This document shows, piece after piece, positions 19,501 through 46,270 of a DNA stretch of 64,000 nucleotides; the stretch's first letter is position 1, and each line of letters starts with the position of its first letter. This DNA comes from Mammaliicoccus sp. Dog046 (GTDB lineage: Bacteria > Bacillota > Bacilli > Staphylococcales > Staphylococcaceae). Location of the stretch: contig NZ_CP120131.1 of assembly GCF_034039665.1 (NCBI RefSeq), positions 1,226,446 through 1,290,445 of the forward strand. The letters are read 5' to 3'. The notes under the pieces are model-generated. The model was given only the letters and a program-made list of their open reading frames with translations, did no database searches and was not told where the DNA came from. The translations under genes and the position numbers were made by a program.

Positions 19501-19519
19501 TTCTATAAATTTGCGAATG

Positions 19520-19609
19520 ATCAAAGTTAGAGAGAATGAAATTATCTTCATCGCCGAAGGAGCAAGCCATATTTGAGTGAATCTCTCAGGCAAAAGGATA
19601 ACTTTGTGA
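19520..19609 (+). promoter_or_regulatory. glycine riboswitch aptamer upstream of gcvT
   Basis: Conserved aptamer blocks are present in order: AGAGAGAAT, the CGCCGAAGGAGCAAGC core, and AATCTCTCAGGCAAAAGGATAAC. GAGAGA pairs with TCTCTC to form P1-like closure. Only one complete aptamer is visible; the following GACGCATTCCTGAAGAGCAC looks like the short ghost partner found in singlet glycine riboswitches. It precedes a terminator and the glycine cleavage operon. Confidence 0.9.
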
Positions 19610-19630
19610 CGCATTCCTGAAGAGCACTTC

Positions 19631-34914: not shown

Positions 34915-34986
34915 ATTATCCAATTACGGTAAATGAGCATATTAATGGTTAAATTATTATTTTGAAACATTATATGCTATTATTAT

Positions 34987-35000
34987 TGTATAAATATTCA
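34987..35000 (+). promoter_or_regulatory. ARG-box-like operator before argR
   Basis: TGTATAAATATTCA fits the ARG box pattern (TGAATAAATATTCA-like half-sites) bound by ArgR/AhrC. It lies 19 bases before the argR start, consistent with autoregulation. Confidence 0.5.
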
Positions 35001-35018
35001 GTGATAGAGGTGTTAAAT

Positions 35019-35471
35019 ATGGCAAATAAAACAATGCGTCAAATTAAGATTAGAGAAATCATTTCAAATGAACAAATAGAGACTCAAGAAGAACTTGTTC
35101 GAAGGTTAAATGAATATGATTTGAATATTACCCAAGCGACGATTTCGCGAGATATTAAAGAGTTACAACTTATAAAAGTACCAGCGCCATCAGGGCAATA
35201 TATTTATAGTTTGCCAAGAGATCGTAAGTACCATCCTATAGATAAATTGGGAAGATATCTTATGGATTCATTCGTTAAAATTGATGGAGCAGGTAATTTA
35301 TTAGTATTGAAAACACTTCCGGGTAATGCACAATCCATTGGTGCAATTATTGATCAGATTGATTGGAAAGAAGTAATTGGCACTATTTGTGGTGACGATA
35401 CATGTTTGATTATTTGTAAAGATGTTGAGTCTGCTGAGATTATTACTGACAGAATTTTCAATATGCTTTAA
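35019..35471 (+). CDS. argR: arginine repressor
   Basis: A 150-residue ArgR/AhrC. The N-terminal winged helix contains [16 protein letters not shown], and the C-terminal hexamerisation and arginine-binding domain contains [13 protein letters not shown]. The ATG at 35019 follows AGAGGTG; an upstream in-frame TTG would add 19 hydrophobic residues unlike the family. It lies between dxs and recN, as in Bacillus. Confidence 0.94.
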
Positions 35472-35488
35472 AGGAGATTTAATATACA

Positions 35489-37159
35489 ATGTTACAAGCA
35501 CTTACAATAAAACAATTCGCTATAATTGAATCATTAGAAATCAACTTTGCAGATGGTCTCACTGTATTAAGTGGTGAAACAGGAGCAGGGAAATCTATCA
35601 TCATTGATGCAATCGGGCAATTAGTTGGCGCAAGAGCATCTCAAAGTTTTGTTCGACATGGGGAACAAAAAGCGATTATCGAAGGTGTATTTGATATTGA
35701 TGATGTACCTAACGTTAACAAAATTTTAAAAGAATTGGATATTGAATTTGACGAAGATTTCCTTTTTGTTAAAAGAGAAATATTTGCTTCTGGGAAAAGT
35801 ATTTGTAAATTAAATAATCAAAACGTAACATTAACGGATTTGAAACTCGTTATGCAGGAATTGTTAGATATTCATGGACAACATGAAACGCAAGTATTGT
35901 TAAAACCTAAGTATCATTTATCACTTTTAGATGATTTTGCAGATGGTTTATATGATAAAGAAATTGAGCAATATACTTCTAACTTCAAATCCTACCAATT
36001 AAAAAAACAAGAACTTGATAAGTTAGAGTCACAAGATCAAGCTCTATTACAACGATTAGATTTGATTAAATTTCAAAGAGACGAATTGCAAGATGCAAAT
36101 CTTAAAGAAGATGAGCTTGAATTCTTAAATCAAGAAATTAAGAAGTTACAAAATCATGAAAAGATTAACGAAAGCTTAAATAAAGCACATTTATTATTAA
36201 GTAGTGAAGAAAACATTACTGACAAAATATATGAACTTAATCAAGAGATTCAACACATCAATGATATTATTCCTGATAAATATACTTCTTTTAGTGAAGA
36301 GTTAGATCAAATGTATTACACATTAGAAGATTATAAACATGAACTATATAATGAATTAACATCTAATGATTTCGATGAATCTCTGTTAAATGAATATGAA
36401 TCAAGATTGAATGTACTTTCAGATTTGAATAGAAAGTATGGTAAGAGTATTCCTGAATTAATTAAATATAGAGATAAAATTGAAGATGAAATTTTTAAAA
36501 TTGAAAATTACGAACAAAGCACTTCACAGCTAAGAGAGGAAATTAATGAATTAAATGAATCTGTCTTGAAGAGTGGCCAAGCACTTTCTAAACAAAGACG
36601 TAAAGTTGCTTTACAACTAAGAGACCGTCTTGTAGATGAAGTACAAAACTTACATATGCAAGATGCCAATATTGAAATTACATTTACTAAAACAGCGCCG
36701 AATAAAAATGGTTTAGAAGAAGTTGAGTTTTTAATAAGCCCAAATAAAGGTGAACCACTTAAAAGTTTAAATAAAATTGCATCTGGTGGTGAACTTTCCA
36801 GAATTATGCTCGCATTAAAAAGCATTTTTGTATCTTCTAAAGGACAAACTGCAATTCTATTTGATGAAGTGGATACAGGTGTATCGGGTAGAGTAGCTCA
36901 AAAAATGGCAGAAAAAATGTATCAAATATCTCAATCATTACAAGTGATTTGTATATCTCATTTACCTCAAGTAGCAGCGATTTGTGACAATCATTTATAT
37001 ATCACTAAAGAAACAATAAATGATCGTACCACTACTTCAATTAAGCAACTAGATGGAGAAGAAAAAATCGATGAAATCGCACGAATGATTTCTGGTGTTG
37101 AAGTGACAGAATTAACAAGACAACATGCAAAAGAAATGATATTACAAAATAAGAATTAA
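35489..37159 (+). CDS. recN: DNA repair protein RecN
   Basis: A 556-residue SMC-like ATPase acting at double-strand breaks. Walker A is GETGAGKS near residue 31. The central region is a long charged coiled coil. The C-terminal signature ASGGELSRIMLALK and Walker B with FDEVDTGVSG are intact. AAAGGAG precedes the ATG. spo0A-like gene follows after 28 bases. Confidence 0.95.
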   Translation: MLQALTIKQFAIIESLEINFADGLTVLSGETGAGKSIIIDAIGQLVGARASQSFVRHGEQKAIIEGVFDIDDVPNVNKILKELDIEFDEDFLFVKREIFASGKSICKLNNQNVTLTDLKLVMQELLDIHGQHETQVLLKPKYHLSLLDDFADGLYDKEIEQYTSNFKSYQLKKQELDKLESQDQALLQRLDLIKFQRDELQDANLKEDELEFLNQEIKKLQNHEKINESLNKAHLLLSSEENITDKIYELNQEIQHINDIIPDKYTSFSEELDQMYYTLEDYKHELYNELTSNDFDESLLNEYESRLNVLSDLNRKYGKSIPELIKYRDKIEDEIFKIENYEQSTSQLREEINELNESVLKSGQALSKQRRKVALQLRDRLVDEVQNLHMQDANIEITFTKTAPNKNGLEEVEFLISPNKGEPLKSLNKIASGGELSRIMLALKSIFVSSKGQTAILFDEVDTGVSGRVAQKMAEKMYQISQSLQVICISHLPQVAAICDNHLYITKETINDRTTTSIKQLDGEEKIDEIARMISGVEVTELTRQHAKEMILQNKN

Positions 37160-37187: not shown

Positions 37188-37901
37188 ATGGTAATTAAGT
37201 TAGCAATAATAGAAGACTCAAAAGCATATGTGAGTGAAGTTACACAATTCTTAAAGAAACAAAATATTGAAATTGTTAATATTGGCTATAATGGGAAAGA
37301 AGCGCTCGATTTCCTTAATGAAAAGAATTTTGATGTACTTTTATTAGATTTAATATTGCCTCATATAGATGGGTTAACATTGTTAAAAAATTATATTAAG
37401 CCTGATAAAGAATATAAAGTCATTTGTATGAGCGCATTTGTCAGTGATGATATTTTAAAAGAATCTGTATCTCTAGGTGTTGATTACTTCTTAATTAAAC
37501 CTGTGGAGTTTGATGTATTACTGAATACTATCCATCGTGTTCTTGAGACAAGTGAAGTGAGTCCCGAAGAAGCAGATGCAGTTGATTCATTACTAGAAAA
37601 TATAGGTATATCAAATAACTTGAATGGTTATCACTATATTAAATATGGTATACATTTAATGCTAAATCATTCACATAAAATGCAATTAACTAAAGAACTT
37701 TATCCACTTATATCTGAACACTATGGTGTTCAAGCGAATAGTGTAGAAAGATCAATTAGACACGCCATCAAATTGGCGTGGGATAAAGAATTGAAATTGT
37801 ACTGGTACAATACTGAGAAATCATATATGAAGCCTACAAATGGTGAATTAATGGGTCACTTATTTAAAATTTATAATGAATCTCAAAATAAAAACAACTG
37901 A
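37188..37901 (+). CDS. spo0A: Spo0A-type response regulator
   Basis: A 237-residue protein with an N-terminal receiver domain and a C-terminal Spo0A DNA-binding domain. The phosphorylation pocket is intact: E9, D10, D54 in LLLDLILPH, S82 and K104. The C-terminal half keeps the Spo0A hallmarks VERSIRHAIKLAW (186-198) and KPTNGE (215-220), as well as GYHYIKYGI and KELYPLI. The interdomain linker is short, explaining why it is about 30 residues shorter than B. subtilis Spo0A. It follows recN as in Bacillus, with spoIVB missing between them. The ATG at 37188 is used; a GTG at 37179 is possible. Its role in a non-sporulating coccus is unknown. Confidence 0.88.
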   Translation: MVIKLAIIEDSKAYVSEVTQFLKKQNIEIVNIGYNGKEALDFLNEKNFDVLLLDLILPHIDGLTLLKNYIKPDKEYKVICMSAFVSDDILKESVSLGVDYFLIKPVEFDVLLNTIHRVLETSEVSPEEADAVDSLLENIGISNNLNGYHYIKYGIHLMLNHSHKMQLTKELYPLISEHYGVQANSVERSIRHAIKLAWDKELKLYWYNTEKSYMKPTNGELMGHLFKIYNESQNKNN

Positions 37902-37937
37902 CTAAGTGAATAAATTTGTCAGTTGTTTTTATTTTTT
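37887..37937. terminator. bidirectional terminator overlapping the spo0A stop codon
   Basis: A 16-bp stem (37887-37902 with 37918-37933) flanked by A- and T-runs. It includes the last four codons and the TGA of the spo0A-like gene and the end of the convergent DUF2627 gene. Confidence 0.85.
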
Positions 37938-38176
37938 GAATTTTTCTTTAAAAATTGTTCCTGTGCGCGTTTGTTTTTCTTCTCTCGATGCAATATGTAG
38001 CCACCAATAAATACAATACCAAATACAAAAAATATGAATCCTAATAAGAATTGAACCCAAATAAAATGTAATTGTGGTACGAGTACACCAAAGACAGCAT
38101 CTCTCATCCACTTAATACCTAGTCCAGCAAGTATGCCAGGAATAATTAATATAAGTAACGCAACGTACTTTTGCAT
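37919..38176 (-). CDS. DUF2627 family membrane protein (YqzF type)
   Basis: An 85-residue protein with two membrane helices (about 5-22 and 40-63) and a basic tail. LIIPGILAGLGIKWMRD and GGYILHREKK match the DUF2627 pattern I remember. In B. subtilis yqzF also lies between spo0A and the bkd cluster. Function unknown. Confidence 0.7.
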   Translation of the reverse strand: MQKYVALLILIIPGILAGLGIKWMRDAVFGVLVPQLHFIWVQFLLGFIFFVFGIVFIGGYILHREKKNKRAQEQFLKKNSKNKNN

Positions 38177-38296
38177 AAGAATAAACCCCTATAATTGAAT
38201 TACTTATATTATATATGAGTTATTGTTTAAAAGTAAACATTCAAAAAATGGAATAATATTATAAATTTGATTATGATAGTAAATGGAGGGGATGAC

Positions 38297-39187
38297 ATGC
38301 AATTTAACGAAATCATTGAAAAAGGCAAACAAGTTAAAGCAACGATCGCAGTTTGTAAATCTAATGACGAAAGTGTTATTAAATCAGTGGTTAAGGCAAT
38401 TAAAGAAACGAATGTGAACTTTATTTTATTTGATGAAGAGCCACAAGATGAATTAATTCGTTCTTTTAATTTAAGCGCAACAGAATTCAAGAGAATTCAT
38501 ATTGTACAAACTAGAGATGAACAACATACCGTTTCAGAATGTGTAAATTCAGTAACAACAGGAGAAGCAGATTTAATTATGAAAGGTATCATTTCAACTT
38601 CAACCTTATTAAAAGAAATATTAAATGATAAATATCAATTAAAAACATCAAACAGAATGAGTCACGTTGCATTATTTAATGTACCTGAATATCATAAGAT
38701 GCTAGCTATCTCAGATGTAGCAATGAATATTGCACCGAATACAGAAGAGAAAATTGAAATCACTTCAAATTTAATTGATACTTTACACATACTCGGAATA
38801 GAAAAACCAAATATTGCAGTATTATCCGCAATTGAAAATGTTAATCCTAAAATGCAATCTTCTGTAGATGCGCATGCTGTTGTATCTCATTTCAAAAATA
38901 TGAGTACTGATGTAATGATTGAAGGACCAATTGCTTTTGATGCAGCAATTAATAAACAAGCATCAATCATTAAAAATATTGACTCAAATATTTCAGGTAA
39001 TGTAGATGGATTAATCGTGCCACAAATAGAAAGTGGTAATATATTATACAAATCACTGGTTTATTTATCACATGCAGATGTTGCATCTATAATAATAGGT
39101 GCAAAAATACCAATAATTTTAACATCACGTTCAGATAACTCACGTGACAAATTTCATTCCATTTGTAGTGCTTTAATGCTCATTTAG
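38297..39187 (+). CDS. ptb: phosphate butyryltransferase (branched-chain acyl)
   Basis: A 296-residue phosphotransacylase of the Pta/Ptb fold, exchanging the CoA of isobutyryl-, isovaleryl- or methylbutyryl-CoA for phosphate. It contains KGIISTSTLLKEILN near residue 97 and VLSAIENVNPKMQSSVDA near residue 178. The ATG at 38297 follows GGAGGGG. It heads the branched-chain catabolic cluster, but a 210-base gap with regulatory-looking sites separates it from bcd. Confidence 0.9.
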   Translation: MQFNEIIEKGKQVKATIAVCKSNDESVIKSVVKAIKETNVNFILFDEEPQDELIRSFNLSATEFKRIHIVQTRDEQHTVSECVNSVTTGEADLIMKGIISTSTLLKEILNDKYQLKTSNRMSHVALFNVPEYHKMLAISDVAMNIAPNTEEKIEITSNLIDTLHILGIEKPNIAVLSAIENVNPKMQSSVDAHAVVSHFKNMSTDVMIEGPIAFDAAINKQASIIKNIDSNISGNVDGLIVPQIESGNILYKSLVYLSHADVASIIIGAKIPIILTSRSDNSRDKFHSICSALMLI

Positions 39188-39234
39188 TATATTATAATAA
39201 TAAATCAATAACTATACTCTTTAAAGCGATAAAA

Positions 39235-39248
39235 TGAAAGTGGTTTCA
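39235..39248 (+). promoter_or_regulatory. cre-like site upstream of bcd
   Basis: TGAAAGTGGTTTCA matches the CcpA consensus TGNAARCGNWWWCA except at the central C. Its arms TGAAA and TTTCA are perfectly symmetric. Confidence 0.4.
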
Positions 39249-39272
39249 AGGCTTATAAATCAATTTATTTTG

Positions 39273-39287
39273 AATTTTCTAAAAAGT
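39273..39287 (+). promoter_or_regulatory. CodY-box-like site upstream of bcd
   Basis: AATTTTCTAAAAAGT matches the CodY consensus AATTTTCWGAAAATT at 13 of 15 positions. CodY senses branched-chain amino acids, the substrates of the downstream genes. Confidence 0.45.
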
Positions 39288-39296
39288 TTTACTTTT

Positions 39297-39310
39297 TGAA
39301 AGCGCTGTCA
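39297..39310 (+). promoter_or_regulatory. cre-like site upstream of bcd
   Basis: TGAAAGCGCTGTCA matches TGNAARCGNWWWCA with one mismatch (G for W). It lies 88 bases before bcd and 10 bases after the CodY-like box. Confidence 0.5.
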
Positions 39311-39397
39311 TTTATCGTCAATTTATTTGATAAATAAAACTTTTGATGTAAAATTAGAAATGAAGTTAATTAATTTATGGATGAAAAGGGGATTTAT

Positions 39398-40498
39398 ATG
39401 TTATTCGAAACTATAGAGAAATATGACTATGAACAAATTGTATTCTGCCATGATAAGAGCTCTGGATTAAAAGCAATTATTGCAATCCACGATACAACTT
39501 TAGGGCCTGCATTAGGTGGATGTAGAATGTGGCCATACGAAAATGAAGAAGAAGCAATTAATGATGCATTACGCCTTTCAAGAGGTATGACATATAAAAA
39601 CGCTGCAGCTGGATTAAATCTAGGTGGCGGAAAAACTGTAATTATCGGTGATCCAAAAAAAGATAAATCAGAAGCTTTATTTAGAGCTTTAGGTAGATAT
39701 GTTGAAAGTTTAAATGGTAGATATATTACTGCTGAAGATGTTGGTACTACAGAAGCTGATATGGATTTAATTTTTGAAGAAACTGATTATGTTGTTGGAC
39801 TTTCTGAAAGTCACCAATCAAGTGGTAATCCAAGTCCTAAAACATCTTTAGGTGTATACGTTTCAATGAAGAGAGCAGCTAAAGAAGCTTTTGGAACAGA
39901 TGATTTATCTGGTAAAACTGTAGCTGTACAAGGTGTTGGTCACGTCGCTTATGACTTATGTCGTTATTTACATGAAGCTGGAGCAAAATTAATCGTTACA
40001 GATATTAACCAAGAAGCAGTCGATAGAGTTGTTAATGACTTTAATGCAACAGCTGTCGGTATTAATGATATTTATGATGTTGAAGCAGATATATTTGCGC
40101 CATGTGCATTAGGTGGCGTATTAAACGACGATACAATCGAAAGATTAAAAGTAAAAGTTGTTTGCGGAAGTGCAAATAACCAATTAGAAGATATAGATAA
40201 TCACGGTAGCCAATTAGAAGACAAAGGCATTGTGTATGCACCTGACTTTGTAGCTAATTCAGGTGGTGTAATTAACGTAGCAGATGAATTAGATGGTTAT
40301 AACGAAGTAAGAGCCGTTTCTAATATCGAAAAAATTTACGATCAAATGGATAAAGTTTTTGAAATCAGTAAACGCGATCACATTACAACTGCACGTGCTG
40401 CTGAAATATTAGCAGAAGAACGTATTGAACAATTGAAGAATGTTAGAAGTAATTTCTTAAAAACTGAAAGATCAATCATATCTAGAGGTAAAAAGTAA
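39398..40498 (+). CDS. bcd: leucine (branched-chain amino acid) dehydrogenase
   Basis: A 366-residue Glu/Leu/Phe/Val dehydrogenase. It deaminates leucine, valine and isoleucine to the 2-keto acids used by the downstream complex. The catalytic lysine region is [11 protein letters not shown] near residue 76, and the NAD-binding loop is [12 protein letters not shown] near 177. The ATG at 39398 follows AAAGGGG; an in-frame start 21 bases upstream contains that ribosome site. Its stop shares a base with the buk start. Confidence 0.94.
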
Positions 40499-41559
40499 TG
40501 AAAAAAATTCTTGTACTTAATTTAGGGAGCACGTCATCCAAAATCGCAGTTTTTACTGAATATGATATGAAATTTGAAGATGTTATTAGACACGACATTG
40601 AACAAACGAATCTTCCATTAAATGATCAAGTTGATTTTAGACTTGAAAGTATCAAGAATGCATTAAACCTTCACCATATTTCTCTACACGCAATAGATGC
40701 TATTGCGTGTAGAGGTGGTGTTTTAAAGCCGATTGAAGGCGGCACATACATAATAAATAAGAAAATGTACAATGATTTAAAGACGTTTAAATATGGGTTT
40801 CATGCATCTAACTTAAGCGGTGTGATTGGTTATGAAATTGCAAAAGAATTAAATATCGAATCTTACATTGTAGATCCAGTAGTTGTAGATGAACTTATGC
40901 CAGAAGCACGTTTAACTGGTATTAAAGGATTGGAAAGAAGAAGTATTTTCCACGCTTTAAATCAGAAATCAGTAGCTAAAGAATTTGCTAAATCGGTCAA
41001 TCGTAAGTATGAAGATATTAATGTTATCGTTGCGCATTTAGGTGGCGGTATTACTGTTGGTGCACATCGAAAAGGTCGTGTCATTGAAGTTAATGATGGA
41101 TTATTAGGCGAAGGACCATTAAGTCCTGAAAGAGCAGGATCTATACCAAACGATGTATTGATAACATGGCTTATAGAAAATGAATTTACCGTACATGAAG
41201 CAATGAATGAATTATCTAAACACGCTGGATTAATGTCATATTTCGGAACAAATAATTGTTTAGAAATTGAAAAGTTAATGGAAAATGGTGATCAAAAAGC
41301 GCAACTTGTATTAGATACAATGTGTTATCAAGTGGCAAAATATATTGGTGCTTGTGCTGCTTCTTTAGAAGGAGATGTTGATCAAATCATTTTAACTGGT
41401 GGCCTTAGTTATTCAAAATATTTAATAAATAAAGTAAAACAATATGTATCTTGGATACAAAATGTTACTATATATGCAGGAGAAAAAGAAATGCACGCCT
41501 TAAATACTGGCGTTATGGACCTCTTATACGGTAAAATTAGTACCAAGTCATATGAATAA
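40498..41559 (+). CDS. buk: butyrate kinase (branched-chain fatty acid kinase)
   Basis: A 353-residue ASKHA-fold kinase. It makes ATP from branched-chain acyl phosphate, completing energy-yielding breakdown with Ptb. LNLGSTSSKIAVF is the N-terminal phosphate loop, AHLGGGITVGAH is near residue 180, and ILTGGLSYS is near residue 300. It overlaps bcd by one base. Confidence 0.93.
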   Translation: MKKILVLNLGSTSSKIAVFTEYDMKFEDVIRHDIEQTNLPLNDQVDFRLESIKNALNLHHISLHAIDAIACRGGVLKPIEGGTYIINKKMYNDLKTFKYGFHASNLSGVIGYEIAKELNIESYIVDPVVVDELMPEARLTGIKGLERRSIFHALNQKSVAKEFAKSVNRKYEDINVIVAHLGGGITVGAHRKGRVIEVNDGLLGEGPLSPERAGSIPNDVLITWLIENEFTVHEAMNELSKHAGLMSYFGTNNCLEIEKLMENGDQKAQLVLDTMCYQVAKYIGACAASLEGDVDQIILTGGLSYSKYLINKVKQYVSWIQNVTIYAGEKEMHALNTGVMDLLYGKISTKSYE

Positions 41560-41570
41560 GGAGTAATACT

Positions 41571-42983
41571 ATGTCTAAAGACTATGATTTAGTTATTCTT
41601 GGTGGTGGAACTGCAGGTTATGTATCTGCAATTAGAGCGTCACAACTTGGAAAAAGTGTAGCATTAGTAGAGAAATCTAAGGTTGGTGGAACGTGCTTAC
41701 ATAAAGGATGTATTCCAACCAAATCATATTTAAAAACCGCTGAAATTTTAAGATACATTAATCATGCAAATGATTATGGTATTAAGACCGCTTCAGCAGA
41801 TTTTGATATGAAAGATATTGTAAGTAAAAAAGATGAAACAGTAAATACGATGTATCAAGGTGTACAATCCTTGATGAAAAAATATAAAATTGATGTTTAT
41901 GAAGGTAATGGCAGAATATTAGGGCCATCATTATTTTCACCACAAGCTGGGACTGTTTCAGTAGAGTTTGAAAATGGTGAATCAGAATTACTTGTGAACC
42001 AAAACGTATTAATAGCGACTGGATCACGACCTGTTGAATTGCCATTTCTGAAATTTAATCATCAAACGATCATTTCTAGTGATGATATGATGCAATTAGA
42101 ACAATTGCCGAAAAACATTTTAATTGTTGGTGGCGGTGTTATTGGCTTAGAATTTGCCTCATTACTTAATGATTTATCAGTAGACGTTACTGTGGTAGAA
42201 GCTGGACCTTCAATCATTCCAAATGAGCAACAAGAAATAAGTAAAACATTGAAGAAACAATTTGAGCAATCAGGAATTAAAATCATAGAAGGATTACCTT
42301 TATCTGAATCAGATATTCAAATCGATGATGAATGTGTCGATGTACAGATTCAAGGTGAACAACAACGATTTGATAAAGTATTAGTAGCTGTCGGCAGAAA
42401 ACCAAATACCGATGATTTAGGCTTGAATAATACAAAGATTAAAACAGATGATAAAGGATACATCATCACTAATGATGTTTACCAAACTGATGATAAACAT
42501 ATTTATGCAGTTGGTGATGTAATCGGAAATTATCAATTAGCACATGTATCAACGAAGGAAGGTACAATTGCTGTTGAGCATATGTTTGATTTAAATCCGA
42601 TTTTACTGGATTACTTAACAGTTCCAAGATGTATCTATACAAATCCGGAAGTGGCATCCATTGGTATGACCGAACAAGATGCAAAAAATACTGGAATTTC
42701 ATATAAGAAGTTTAAAGTACCATTTAAAGCGATTGGTAAATCTGTAATCGAAAATAATGGTTTAGGTGAATGTATATTAATTAAAGATGTTGAAAATGAT
42801 AAAGTATTAGGTATTCATATGATTGGTGCTAAAGTAACTGAACTAATTAATGAAGCCGCGTTATTTACATTTATGAATGGTTCTACTGAAGAATTAGCTA
42901 CTACTGTACATGCGCACCCTTCAATTGGGGAAGTGCTTATGGAATTAGGATTGAAATCTGAGAATCGTGCTATTCACGTCTAA
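41571..42983 (+). CDS. lpdV: dihydrolipoyl dehydrogenase E3 of the branched-chain keto acid complex
   Basis: A 470-residue flavoenzyme. The FAD loop is GGGTAGY (11-17), the redox-active pair is C42 and C47 in GGTCLHKGC, the NAD loop is GGGVIGLEFASLL, and the C-terminal catalytic histidine is in HAHPSIGE. It reoxidises dihydrolipoamide of BkdB. Tightly spaced between buk and bkdAA, behind AGGAG. Confidence 0.95.
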   Translation: MSKDYDLVILGGGTAGYVSAIRASQLGKSVALVEKSKVGGTCLHKGCIPTKSYLKTAEILRYINHANDYGIKTASADFDMKDIVSKKDETVNTMYQGVQSLMKKYKIDVYEGNGRILGPSLFSPQAGTVSVEFENGESELLVNQNVLIATGSRPVELPFLKFNHQTIISSDDMMQLEQLPKNILIVGGGVIGLEFASLLNDLSVDVTVVEAGPSIIPNEQQEISKTLKKQFEQSGIKIIEGLPLSESDIQIDDECVDVQIQGEQQRFDKVLVAVGRKPNTDDLGLNNTKIKTDDKGYIITNDVYQTDDKHIYAVGDVIGNYQLAHVSTKEGTIAVEHMFDLNPILLDYLTVPRCIYTNPEVASIGMTEQDAKNTGISYKKFKVPFKAIGKSVIENNGLGECILIKDVENDKVLGIHMIGAKVTELINEAALFTFMNGSTEELATTVHAHPSIGEVLMELGLKSENRAIHV

Positions 42984-42997
42984 AGAGGAGAGATTAG

Positions 42998-43996
42998 ATG
43001 TTAGATTATAAGACTGTCGGATTAACGCATGAAGACTTAAAACAAATGTATAAATGGATGTTGTTAGGACGTAAGATTGACGAACGAATGTGGCTTTTAA
43101 ATAGAGCTGGGAAATTGCCTTTTGTTATTAGCTGCCAAGGTCAAGAAGCTACACAAATAGGTACATATTTCGCACTTAAAGATGAAGATATTTTAGCACC
43201 ATACTATAGAGATTTAGCGTTAGTAACAGCTAGAGGTATTACAGCTGAGGAATCAATGTTAGCTGCATTTGCTAAACAAGGTGATACGTCAAGTGGTGGT
43301 AAACAAATGCCTTCTCATTTTAGTAAAAAAGATTTGGGTATCTTAACACAGGGTTCTTGTGTAACGACACAAGTATTACATGCAGTTGGTGCAAGTTTAT
43401 CTATAAAAATGGATGGAAAGAAAAGTGTTGCACTTGCAACTTTAGGTGAGGGAAGTACGAGCCAAGGTGATTTTCATGAAGCGATGAACTTTGCCGGCGT
43501 TCACAAACTGCCTTACATCTGTATCATTGAAAACAATAAATATGCGATATCTGTACCGAGCCATCTACAATTTGCTACTGATGATCTATCTTCAAGAGCA
43601 GCTGGATATGGCGCTTTTGGTGAGCAAGTAGATGGTAATGACCCAATTGCAGTTTATGAAGCAGTGAAACGTGCAAGAGAACGTGCAATCAATGGGGAAG
43701 GTCCAACATTGATTGAAGCTTTATGTAGTCGGTTAACACCTCATTCATCTGATGATGACGATAACTATCGTCCGGCAGAAGAAATGAAAGAAGAAAAAGA
43801 AAATGACTGTATTATTAAATTTAAATCATATTTAGTTGATAATGAAATTGGTGACGAAGCTTGGTTCAAACAATTAGATGATGAAATTAAACAAGAAATC
43901 AATACAGCTACAAAGAATGCTGAAAAGGCACCTTATCCATTGCCTGAAGAAGCTTTAACACATGTATATGATCAAGGAGGCGAACAAAATGCCTAA
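42998..43996 (+). CDS. bkdAA: branched-chain 2-oxo acid dehydrogenase E1 alpha
   Basis: A 332-residue thiamine diphosphate-dependent E1 alpha. The TPP motif starts at GEGSTSQGDFHEAMNFA and ends at ENNKYAIS; QMPSHF lies upstream. It decarboxylates branched-chain keto acids with BkdAB. AGAGGAGAG precedes the ATG, and the last eight bases overlap bkdAB. Confidence 0.95.
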   Translation: MLDYKTVGLTHEDLKQMYKWMLLGRKIDERMWLLNRAGKLPFVISCQGQEATQIGTYFALKDEDILAPYYRDLALVTARGITAEESMLAAFAKQGDTSSGGKQMPSHFSKKDLGILTQGSCVTTQVLHAVGASLSIKMDGKKSVALATLGEGSTSQGDFHEAMNFAGVHKLPYICIIENNKYAISVPSHLQFATDDLSSRAAGYGAFGEQVDGNDPIAVYEAVKRARERAINGEGPTLIEALCSRLTPHSSDDDDNYRPAEEMKEEKENDCIIKFKSYLVDNEIGDEAWFKQLDDEIKQEINTATKNAEKAPYPLPEEALTHVYDQGGEQNA

Positions 43997-44972
43997 ATTA
44001 TCTTATCTAGACGCAATTAATCAAGCGATGGATCAAGCGATGGAAAAAGATAAAAATGTATTTGTCATTGGTGAAGACGTTGGGTTAAAAGGCGGCGTAT
44101 TTGGCGCTACTAAAAATTTATATGACAAATATGGTGCTGGAAGAGTTATGGACTCACCATTAGCGGAATCCAATATCGTTGGTGCATCTATTGGTGCAGC
44201 TATGATGGGGAAACGCCCAGTTGCTGAAATACAATTTGCAGAGTATATTGTTCCAGCGACAAATCAAATTATCAATGAAGCAGCAAAAATTAGATACCGT
44301 TCTAATAATGACTGGGATTGTCCAATGACTATCCGTAGTCCATTTGGAGGCGGGATTCATGGTGCACTTTACCATTCACAAAGTATTGAAACGATATTCT
44401 GTTCGACACCTGGATTAAGAGTCGTTATCCCATCAACACCATATGATGCAAAAGGTCTTTTATTAGCGTCAATTGAAGATAATGACCCAGTGTTGTACTT
44501 TGAACATAAGAAAGCATATCGATTATTAAAAGAAGAAGTGCCTGAAGAATATTATACAGTGCCATTAGACAAAGCAGATGTAAAACGTGAAGGTACAGAC
44601 ATTACAGTATTCACATACGGTTTATGTGTTAATTATGCTTTGCAAGCAGCTGAAATATTATCAACGGAAGGTATCAATGCTGAAATTGTTGATTTACGTA
44701 CTTTATATCCATTAGATAAAGAAACAATTATCAATTGTGCTAAAAAGACTGGTAAAGTATTGTTAATCACTGAAGATAATTTAGAAGGTAGTGTTATAAG
44801 TGAAGTGTCTGCAATCATTGCAGAAAACTGTTTATTTGACCTAGATGCTCCAATAGCAAGATTGGCTGGACCTGATGTACCGGCAATGCCATTCTCACCA
44901 CCTATGGAAGATTTCTTTATGATGAATCCAGAAAAAATCGAACAAAAAATGAGAACATTAGCTGAATTTTAG
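43989..44972 (+). CDS. bkdAB: branched-chain 2-oxo acid dehydrogenase E1 beta
   Basis: A 327-residue E1 beta. It contains VIGEDVGLKGGVFGATKNL near residue 25 and MTIRSPFGGGIHGALYHSQS near residue 115. The start is ATG 43989 after AAGGAGG inside bkdAA; an upstream in-frame start would add nine residues. It forms the alpha2beta2 E1 with BkdAA. Confidence 0.95.
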   Translation: MPKLSYLDAINQAMDQAMEKDKNVFVIGEDVGLKGGVFGATKNLYDKYGAGRVMDSPLAESNIVGASIGAAMMGKRPVAEIQFAEYIVPATNQIINEAAKIRYRSNNDWDCPMTIRSPFGGGIHGALYHSQSIETIFCSTPGLRVVIPSTPYDAKGLLLASIEDNDPVLYFEHKKAYRLLKEEVPEEYYTVPLDKADVKREGTDITVFTYGLCVNYALQAAEILSTEGINAEIVDLRTLYPLDKETIINCAKKTGKVLLITEDNLEGSVISEVSAIIAENCLFDLDAPIARLAGPDVPAMPFSPPMEDFFMMNPEKIEQKMRTLAEF

Positions 44973-44983
44973 GAGGTATAATG

Positions 44984-46270
44984 ATGGACGTTAAAATGCC
45001 AAAGCTTGGAGAAAGTGTGCATGAAGGAACGATTGAACAATGGCTTGTTAAACCAGGTGACACAATCGAAGAATATGATGCATTATGTGAAGTAATTACA
45101 GATAAGGTAACAGCGGAAGTACCATCTACATTCAGCGGCGTCATCAAAGAACTTGTTGTAGAAGCTGGGGAAACAGTAGACGTTGGTACAATTATTTGTC
45201 GTATGGATGTAGAAGGCGATTCAGGAGATGTAGCAACGACTTCATCAGAAGAGCCTGAAGAAAATACGGCTGAAGAACCTACGCAAGCAAAAGAATCAAA
45301 TAAAACTGCAGAGTCAAACGATAAAACAGAAAAACAAAATAATGGTCAATTCTCACCAGTTGTATTTAAATTAGCGAGTGAAAATGGCATTAATTTAGAT
45401 GGTGTTAAAGGTACAGGCCATTTAGGACGTGTCACTAAGAAAGATATTTTAAATGCGATAGAACAAGATGAAAATGTAGAACAAACGCAATCACAACCTA
45501 AAGAAAGTGTTGTAAAAGAGGCGCCTGTTGAACAAAGCAATCAAATTGAAGCAGATACATCTACTGAACATATTGGTGAATCTATACCTGTTAATGGTGT
45601 GAGAAGAGCAATCGCAAATAAAATGGTACAAAGTGTGAATGAAATCCCTCATGCATGGATGATGGTTGAAGTAGATGCTACTGATCTTGTTAAAACAAGA
45701 CAACATCACAAATCATCATTTAAACAAAATGAAGGATTTAATTTAACATTCTTTGCATTCTTTGTTAAAGCAGTTGCAGAAGGCTTGAAAAAATATCCAA
45801 TGCTTAATAGCACTTGGTCAAACGATGAAATTAAAATTCATAAAGATATAAATGTTTCTATTGCAGTTGCTAGTGAAGATAAATTGTATGTACCAGTAAT
45901 CAAAAATGCAGACGATAAATCTATTAAAGGTATTGCAAAAGAAATTAATGATCTAGCTACAAGAGGTAGAAAACATAAATTAACTTCACAAGATATGCAA
46001 GGTGGAACATTTACAGTTAATAATACTGGTTCATTCGGTTCTGTATCATCAATGGGAATTATTAATCACCCACAAGCAGCTATACTACAAGTTGAATCAA
46101 TTGTTAAAAGGCCAGTCGTTGTAAATGACATGATCGGCATTCGAGATATGGTTAATTTATCACTGTCTATTGACCACAGAATTTTAGATGGCTTAATGGC
46201 TGGTGAATTTCTGAAATATGTGAAAGAAAGATTACAAAGTATGACAATTGAGAATACATCAATCTATTAA
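44984..46270 (+). CDS. bkdB: lipoamide acyltransferase E2 of the branched-chain keto acid complex
   Basis: A 428-residue E2. An N-terminal lipoyl domain (lysine in ITDKVTAEVP, near residue 43) is followed by an acidic linker, a small E1/E3-binding domain (SPVVFKLASENGINL, GTGHLGRVTKKDI) and a catalytic core ending in the DHRILDG active site. Two ATG codons are adjacent at 44981 and 44984; the second has better spacing from AGGAGGT. It makes branched acyl-CoA, also the primer for branched-chain fatty acids. Lipoylation depends on LipM-type enzymes. Confidence 0.95.
   Translation: MDVKMPKLGESVHEGTIEQWLVKPGDTIEEYDALCEVITDKVTAEVPSTFSGVIKELVVEAGETVDVGTIICRMDVEGDSGDVATTSSEEPEENTAEEPTQAKESNKTAESNDKTEKQNNGQFSPVVFKLASENGINLDGVKGTGHLGRVTKKDILNAIEQDENVEQTQSQPKESVVKEAPVEQSNQIEADTSTEHIGESIPVNGVRRAIANKMVQSVNEIPHAWMMVEVDATDLVKTRQHHKSSFKQNEGFNLTFFAFFVKAVAEGLKKYPMLNSTWSNDEIKIHKDINVSIAVASEDKLYVPVIKNADDKSIKGIAKEINDLATRGRKHKLTSQDMQGGTFTVNNTGSFGSVSSMGIINHPQAAILQVESIVKRPVVVNDMIGIRDMVNLSLSIDHRILDGLMAGEFLKYVKERLQSMTIENTSIY

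Follow-up and report, generated by a model that had tools for sequence, protein, structure and literature searches.

Research on Spo0A has dealt almost entirely with its action as a sporulation switch, from which any further roles are difficult to disentangle. The locus described here raises the question of what the protein does in a coccus that appears to have lost sporulation. The window, a stretch of 64,000 nucleotides from Mammaliicoccus sp. Dog046 analysed as a whole, carries at positions 37188–37901 (plus strand) an ORF with an ATG start encoding a response regulator of 237 aa, which the Pfam, NCBIfam and residue-alignment analyses confirmed as an intact, complete Spo0A. The two parts of the family signature are joined in one protein: a receiver domain (residues 6–115, 37203–37532, plus strand; Pfam Response_reg, 75 bits, cut-off 30.2), with the solved Spo0A receivers 1dz3 and 9phz as its closest PDB matches, and a DNA-binding domain (residues 133–223, 37584–37856, plus strand; Pfam Spo0A_C, 79.1 bits, cut-off 25), matching only the Spo0A structures 1fc3 and 1lq1 in the PDB. 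The preliminary description had read a full receiver (E9, D10, D54, S82 and K104) and a Spo0A DNA-binding domain with the string KPTNGE from the letters alone, and both readings hold. All five receiver residues are present, so that a phosphorylatable aspartate (Asp54, codon 37347–37349, plus strand) is accompanied by its catalytic residues; among 23 full-length Staphylococcaceae Spo0A sequences, D10, D54, S82 and K104 are invariant and E9 is conserved in at least 90%. In the alignment with 1lq1, KPTNGE corresponds to KPTNSE of B. subtilis Spo0A, and the recognition helix VERSIRHAIKLAW (37743–37781, plus strand) to VERAIRHAIEVAW; E, R, I and R of this helix (the ERxIR core) are invariant in the same 23 relatives and H is conserved in at least 90%. 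The NCBIfam sporulation-Spo0A equivalog TIGR02875 was not reached (159.6 versus 200 bits, residues 3–222). The window protein, with a score 40 bits below this threshold, is therefore a divergent Spo0A that is not filed as the sporulation equivalog.

The gene upstream, recN (35489–37159, plus strand), identified from its translation and the intervening sequence, ends at 37159 and spo0A begins 28 bp further on. Since only these 28 bp separate the two genes, spoIVB is absent, in agreement with the earlier proposal that spo0A has stayed in its ancestral site after recN while spoIVB has gone. The next gene upstream of recN (34962–35471, plus strand) we take to be argR, from its translation and our knowledge of the family.

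A profile survey of 108 Staphylococcaceae genomes from five genera (g1 to g5, with the source genome in g1, Mammaliicoccus) detected Spo0A_C in 8/8 g1, 9/9 g2, 6/6 g3 and 1/1 g4 genomes and in none of the 84 genomes of g5. The gene is thus fixed in four genera and is no oddity of a single strain. Judging from the numbers, g5 would be Staphylococcus, and the same numbers, together with the published Spo0A of Macrococcus caseolyticus, suggest that g2–g4 include the macrococci. No frameshift was found in spo0A of the 23 full-length relatives, and dN/dS was 0.025 to 0.09 for the pairs in which it could be computed, dS being saturated for distant pairs; the values for recN (partial genes) were 0.02 to 0.05. 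These rates indicate purifying selection on spo0A and bear out the view that both domains, each with a strong Pfam match, have been kept by selection. SpoIVA, the product of a spore-coat gene, was not detected by profile search in any of the 108 genomes, with the B. subtilis positive control matched. According to the text of Galperin (2012; PMC3533761), M. caseolyticus is asporogenous, Macrococcus lacks sigE, sigF, sigG, sigK, spoIIE and many other genes, and only Spo0M, SpoVB, SpoVG and Jag are named as other sporulation proteins of M. caseolyticus. The absence of SpoIVA and the purifying selection on spo0A support the earlier suggestion that this Spo0A probably controls functions other than sporulation.

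The preliminary description had also placed the kinase of Spo0A outside the window, and a genome-wide search recovered a candidate kinase, a Spo0F and a Spo0B elsewhere. The source genome, a single contig of 2.57 Mb, encodes 17 receivers and 20 HATPase proteins. By position, 15 of the 17 receivers have a kinase neighbour, the exceptions being Spo0A and one lone receiver; among the true histidine kinases, a single one stands apart from any receiver. This orphan kinase (494 aa, genome positions 1861194–1862675) has the domain layout of KinD, including a double-CACHE sensor. It matched the NCBIfam KinD equivalog NF053867 over nearly the full model (219.8 bits) without meeting the cut-off of 775, and is therefore named KinD-like rather than KinD. 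The AlphaFold model of its sensor (pLDDT 82) had the KinD sensor 4jgp/4jgo as its top fold matches among the Foldseek candidates (Z 16.8, 188 residues, 2.8–2.9 Å; next fold Z 13.9), so that, on the predicted structure, the double-CACHE fold is closest to that of KinD; the structure 4jgp was solved with pyruvate. The lone receiver (117 aa, genome positions 685289–685639) lies between pyrG and fbaA in the order pyrG, a small gene on the opposite (minus) strand, spo0F, fbaA and murA (locus L059). It is thus a stand-alone receiver directly upstream of fbaA and near the CTP synthase gene, which is the genome context of Spo0F, and its top PDB match is the Spo0F of 1f51. Full-length relatives of the kinase (at least 216 bits) and relatives of the lone receiver (at least 89 bits) occur in exactly the 24 Spo0A-positive genomes of the 108; the 84 g5 genomes yielded merely kinase-domain or other-receiver matches, with neither a full-length kinase nor Spo0F. 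In the draft assembly of M. stepanovicii, spo0F (L103:1477-1850) has a one-base shift in an A-run near its start, owing either to an assembly error or to genuine loss in this one species.

A gene between rpmA and obg (genome positions 1130496–1131026 in the source genome) encodes a Spo0B phosphotransferase. It carries the RHDxxNQxQL phospho-histidine motif in all 19 Spo0A-positive genomes examined at this interval (of 24), with H12 invariant, and nothing comparable was found between rpmA and obg in three g5 genomes. Pfam SPOB_a matched all 19 proteins (48 bits for that of the source genome, cut-off 28.1), so that context, domain and phospho-histidine agree. The only significant PDB matches of a profile of these proteins were Spo0B chains (E about 2e-9), and the closest folds to the AlphaFold model (pLDDT 85), again among Foldseek candidates, were the Spo0B structures 1ixm and 1f51 (Z 15.3 versus 10.7 for the next). 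The model for the C-terminal Spo0B domain, SPOB_ab (PF14682), matched in none of the 108 genomes, and the gene was located through its genome context; PMC6136694 describes this model as too specific to identify Spo0B. Conservation is poor in the C-terminal half, which in genus g3 is also short; in the structural model this half still matches the 1f51/1ixm fold. Of the four relay genes, all with dN/dS below 1, spo0B evolves fastest (up to 0.52, in one close pair). The same paper takes genome context as the criterion for Spo0F and Spo0B, and the presence of both as strong evidence of a phosphorelay.

We placed the specificity positions of Davidson et al. (PMC6136694) by matching the B. subtilis strings. 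The kinase reads T[SAT]GF[ED][LI], with TSGFEL in 17 of 24 sequences (TxGFQL/I in B. subtilis), and Spo0F reads ENILEI followed by a variable last residue (QGILEVD). Spo0B reads Q[LM]xYxL (QLGNSL) and Spo0A S[AED].... (NELLEYD). Judged by these residues, the kinase–Spo0F interface is well kept and the Spo0B–Spo0A interface has moved together; since the interface residues on the Spo0A side have diverged, the Spo0B–Spo0A step must have co-evolved.

The C-terminal domain of AbrB (AbrB_C, PF18277) was found, like the kinase and Spo0F, in each of the 24 Spo0A-positive genomes, and in only 1 of the 84 g5 genomes. The AbrB of the source genome has both the N-terminal and the C-terminal domain (PF18277, 63.6 bits; PDB matches 1z0r, E 4.6e-25, and 2mjg), and its gene lies between metS and rsmI. 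Bacillus abrB likewise stands in the order metS-abrB-rsmI. The g5 copy (L292, in genome G066) is divergent and has other gene neighbours, and an exact 0A box was not found there. In B. subtilis, abrB is repressed by Spo0A~P bound directly after the transcription start (PMC9160880), and TGTCGAA is the core 0A box (PMC3485338). All 23 readable abrB promoters of the Spo0A-positive genomes contain two exact TGTCGAA boxes in tandem, just downstream of the abrB start (genome positions 2448350–2448367 in the source genome). Each consists of a TTGAC(A/T) -35 element, a 17-bp spacer, a -10 element and, exactly 14 nt after the -10, the first TGTCGAA; the second follows 11 bp further in Mammaliicoccus and 20–22 bp further in the other genera. 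The fully invariant columns of the promoter alignment are mainly promoter elements and boxes, the spacers having diverged, and two such boxes per promoter would arise by chance with a probability of about 4e-4 (first-order Markov null). The boxes are thus predicted Spo0A sites that match the arrangement in B. subtilis.

The abrB promoter holds the sole exact TGTCGAA–TGTCGAA pair with a spacing of 2–30 bp in the source genome. No other tandem pair was recognised as a conserved exact pair, several of those examined being within ORFs or short repeats; the segments G004:C20:7437-7587 and G006:C8:18690-18749, for instance, consist of short tandem repeats of 24–26 bp, each with a TGTCGAA. The search for Spo0A sites had a divided outcome: canonical boxes were present at abrB, whereas the consensus proposed earlier, tested as TTTGTCGAA, was not enriched in four Mammaliicoccus genomes (24, 35, 29 and 32 matches, versus 36, 50, 35 and 53 for the reversed pattern), and only 11 of the 120 matches were outside ORFs. 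With no excess over the reversed control, this pattern was dropped as a genome-wide regulon finder, and the informative signal is therefore the tandem pair at abrB. Only one intergenic match was conserved; it precedes a TerC-like gene and was not accepted as a Spo0A site, since it is part of a yybP-ykoY manganese riboswitch (RF00080, E 4.6e-8; the 37.8 bits fall short of the Rfam gathering score). This conserved riboswitch mimics a conserved 0A box at the prfC–TerC-like gene loci L187, L209, L226 and L257. No exact box was found upstream of spo0A and the kinase gene, over 300 bp, or upstream of spo0B, and spo0F had one, at -250, in a single genome; autoregulation of the Bacillus type thus does not appear in the exact-box search.

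We consider it very probable that the window Spo0A is a working, vertically inherited protein, that it forms the last member of a full phosphorelay of the Bacillus type which has persisted beyond sporulation, and that it represses abrB as a transition-state switch. All parts except the kinase have kept their Bacillus gene places (recN-spo0A, pyrG-X-fbaA, rpmA-X-obg and metS-abrB-rsmI). In this circuit, the membrane kinase would autophosphorylate, presumably upon a signal perceived by its KinD-type double-CACHE sensor, and the phosphoryl group would pass to Spo0F, then to Spo0B and then to Asp54 of Spo0A. Spo0A~P would bind the two tandem boxes and repress abrB, and AbrB repression of transition-state genes would be relieved. 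The relay and abrB would then have been lost as a unit in g5, presumably Staphylococcus. The co-occurrence of the parts may stem from a single loss event, and it therefore counts as one or few independent data points. Further points against this reading are the diverged interface residues of Spo0A, the one-base shift in spo0F of M. stepanovicii, the fast evolution of Spo0B and the failure to find autoregulation of the Bacillus type.

Direct phosphorylation of Spo0A by the orphan kinase, with Spo0F and Spo0B as remnants or in another role, has a precedent in Clostridia (PMC6136694) and would fit the poorly conserved, in g3 short, C-terminal half of Spo0B and the shifted spo0F of one draft genome. 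We regard it as improbable, given that the kinase residues are of the relay type, unlike NVSAQV in a direct-type example, and that Spo0F and Spo0B track Spo0A over four genera with invariant catalytic residues. It is more improbable still that the gene is a decaying, functionless relic; the missed equivalog cut-off and the spo0F shift in one species point that way, against which stand the intact ORFs, dN/dS ratios that stay under 1 in all cases and by a wide margin for spo0A, and boxes that stay invariant amid divergent spacers in 23 promoters. Least credible of all is cryptic spore formation, in which Spo0A, with its relay intact, would still serve sporulation: spoIVB and SpoIVA are missing, and so are the sigma factors, spoIIE and other genes in the Macrococcus list cited above.

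The relay itself is compatible with different target ranges. Spo0A may have shrunk to a near-dedicated repressor of abrB, a one-kinase relay acting on essentially one conserved high-affinity target, a reading that we hold only tentatively. We give no more and no less credence to a broad regulon in which most of the action of Spo0A falls on other targets (biofilm, metabolism or the bkd operon) and abrB is just one among many, and this could hold alongside the relay and abrB circuit favoured here. B. subtilis Spo0A has many targets, with many boxes off consensus, and our search covered exact tandem pairs and TTTGTCGAA, with single or degenerate boxes covered less than exhaustively. The lack of enrichment of TTTGTCGAA, its scarcity outside ORFs, the riboswitch identity of its single conserved intergenic match and the failure to recognise another conserved exact pair argue in the other direction.

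The circuit resembles the B. subtilis KinA–E/Spo0F/Spo0B/Spo0A relay, in which abrB is a low-threshold target, in its four protein types and their catalytic residues, in the genome places of spo0A, spo0F, spo0B and abrB, in the KinD sensor fold, and in 0A boxes that closely follow the abrB start. Unlike B. subtilis, with five kinases, the cocci have one relay-type kinase that we could find; SpoIVA and spoIVB are absent, the Spo0A linker is short, the Spo0B–Spo0A contact residues have diverged, spo0A has no exact boxes, and the abrB boxes are spaced differently (11 bp, or 20–22 bp outside Mammaliicoccus). An orphan kinase feeding Spo0A recalls the direct pathways of Clostridium, from which the cocci differ by Spo0F, Spo0B and relay-type kinase residues. 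M. caseolyticus is likewise an asporogenous member of the Staphylococcaceae with a typical Spo0A (PMC3533761), and the text of that paper mentions neither relay proteins nor AbrB wiring for this species. The 2018 relay survey (PMC6136694) reports 15 Spo0A-positive non-spore-formers with a possible alternate role, and its main text names neither Macrococcus nor Staphylococcus. In our search of open-licence papers, supplements aside, no description of Staphylococcaceae with Spo0F, Spo0B, a Spo0 kinase or the AbrB wiring came up; on this literature search we therefore rate the relay and abrB circuit as a new form of a familiar kind of system, the Spo0A gene itself being known in kind from asporogenous Macrococcus (Galperin 2012).

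A spore switch thus appears to have been kept as a general regulator of the passage from growth to stationary phase. The group next to Staphylococcus appears to have kept the relay and abrB with sporulation gone, and this minimal one-kinase system would allow a non-sporulation role of Spo0A to be tested cleanly; removal of spo0A is predicted to de-repress abrB. Staphylococcus is also set apart from its sister genera by a clear-cut difference in regulation. Were Spo0A indeed a near-dedicated abrB repressor, growth-phase control through AbrB could be what selection preserves of the Spo0A circuit once sporulation is gone, and Staphylococcus would then have lost the whole module.

Downstream of spo0A in the window lies a convergent DUF2627 gene (37919–38176, minus strand; Pfam PF11118, 99 bits), followed by the complete branched-chain keto-acid operon ptb-bcd-buk-lpd-bkdAA-bkdAB-bkdB (38267–46270, plus strand), its first gene matched by Pfam PTA_PTB and the rest named from their translations. 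This is the ancestral downstream neighbourhood of spo0A, and a bkdR gene was not seen between spo0A and ptb. The window also contains a glycine riboswitch at 19517–19611 (plus strand; RF00504, 73.3 bits).
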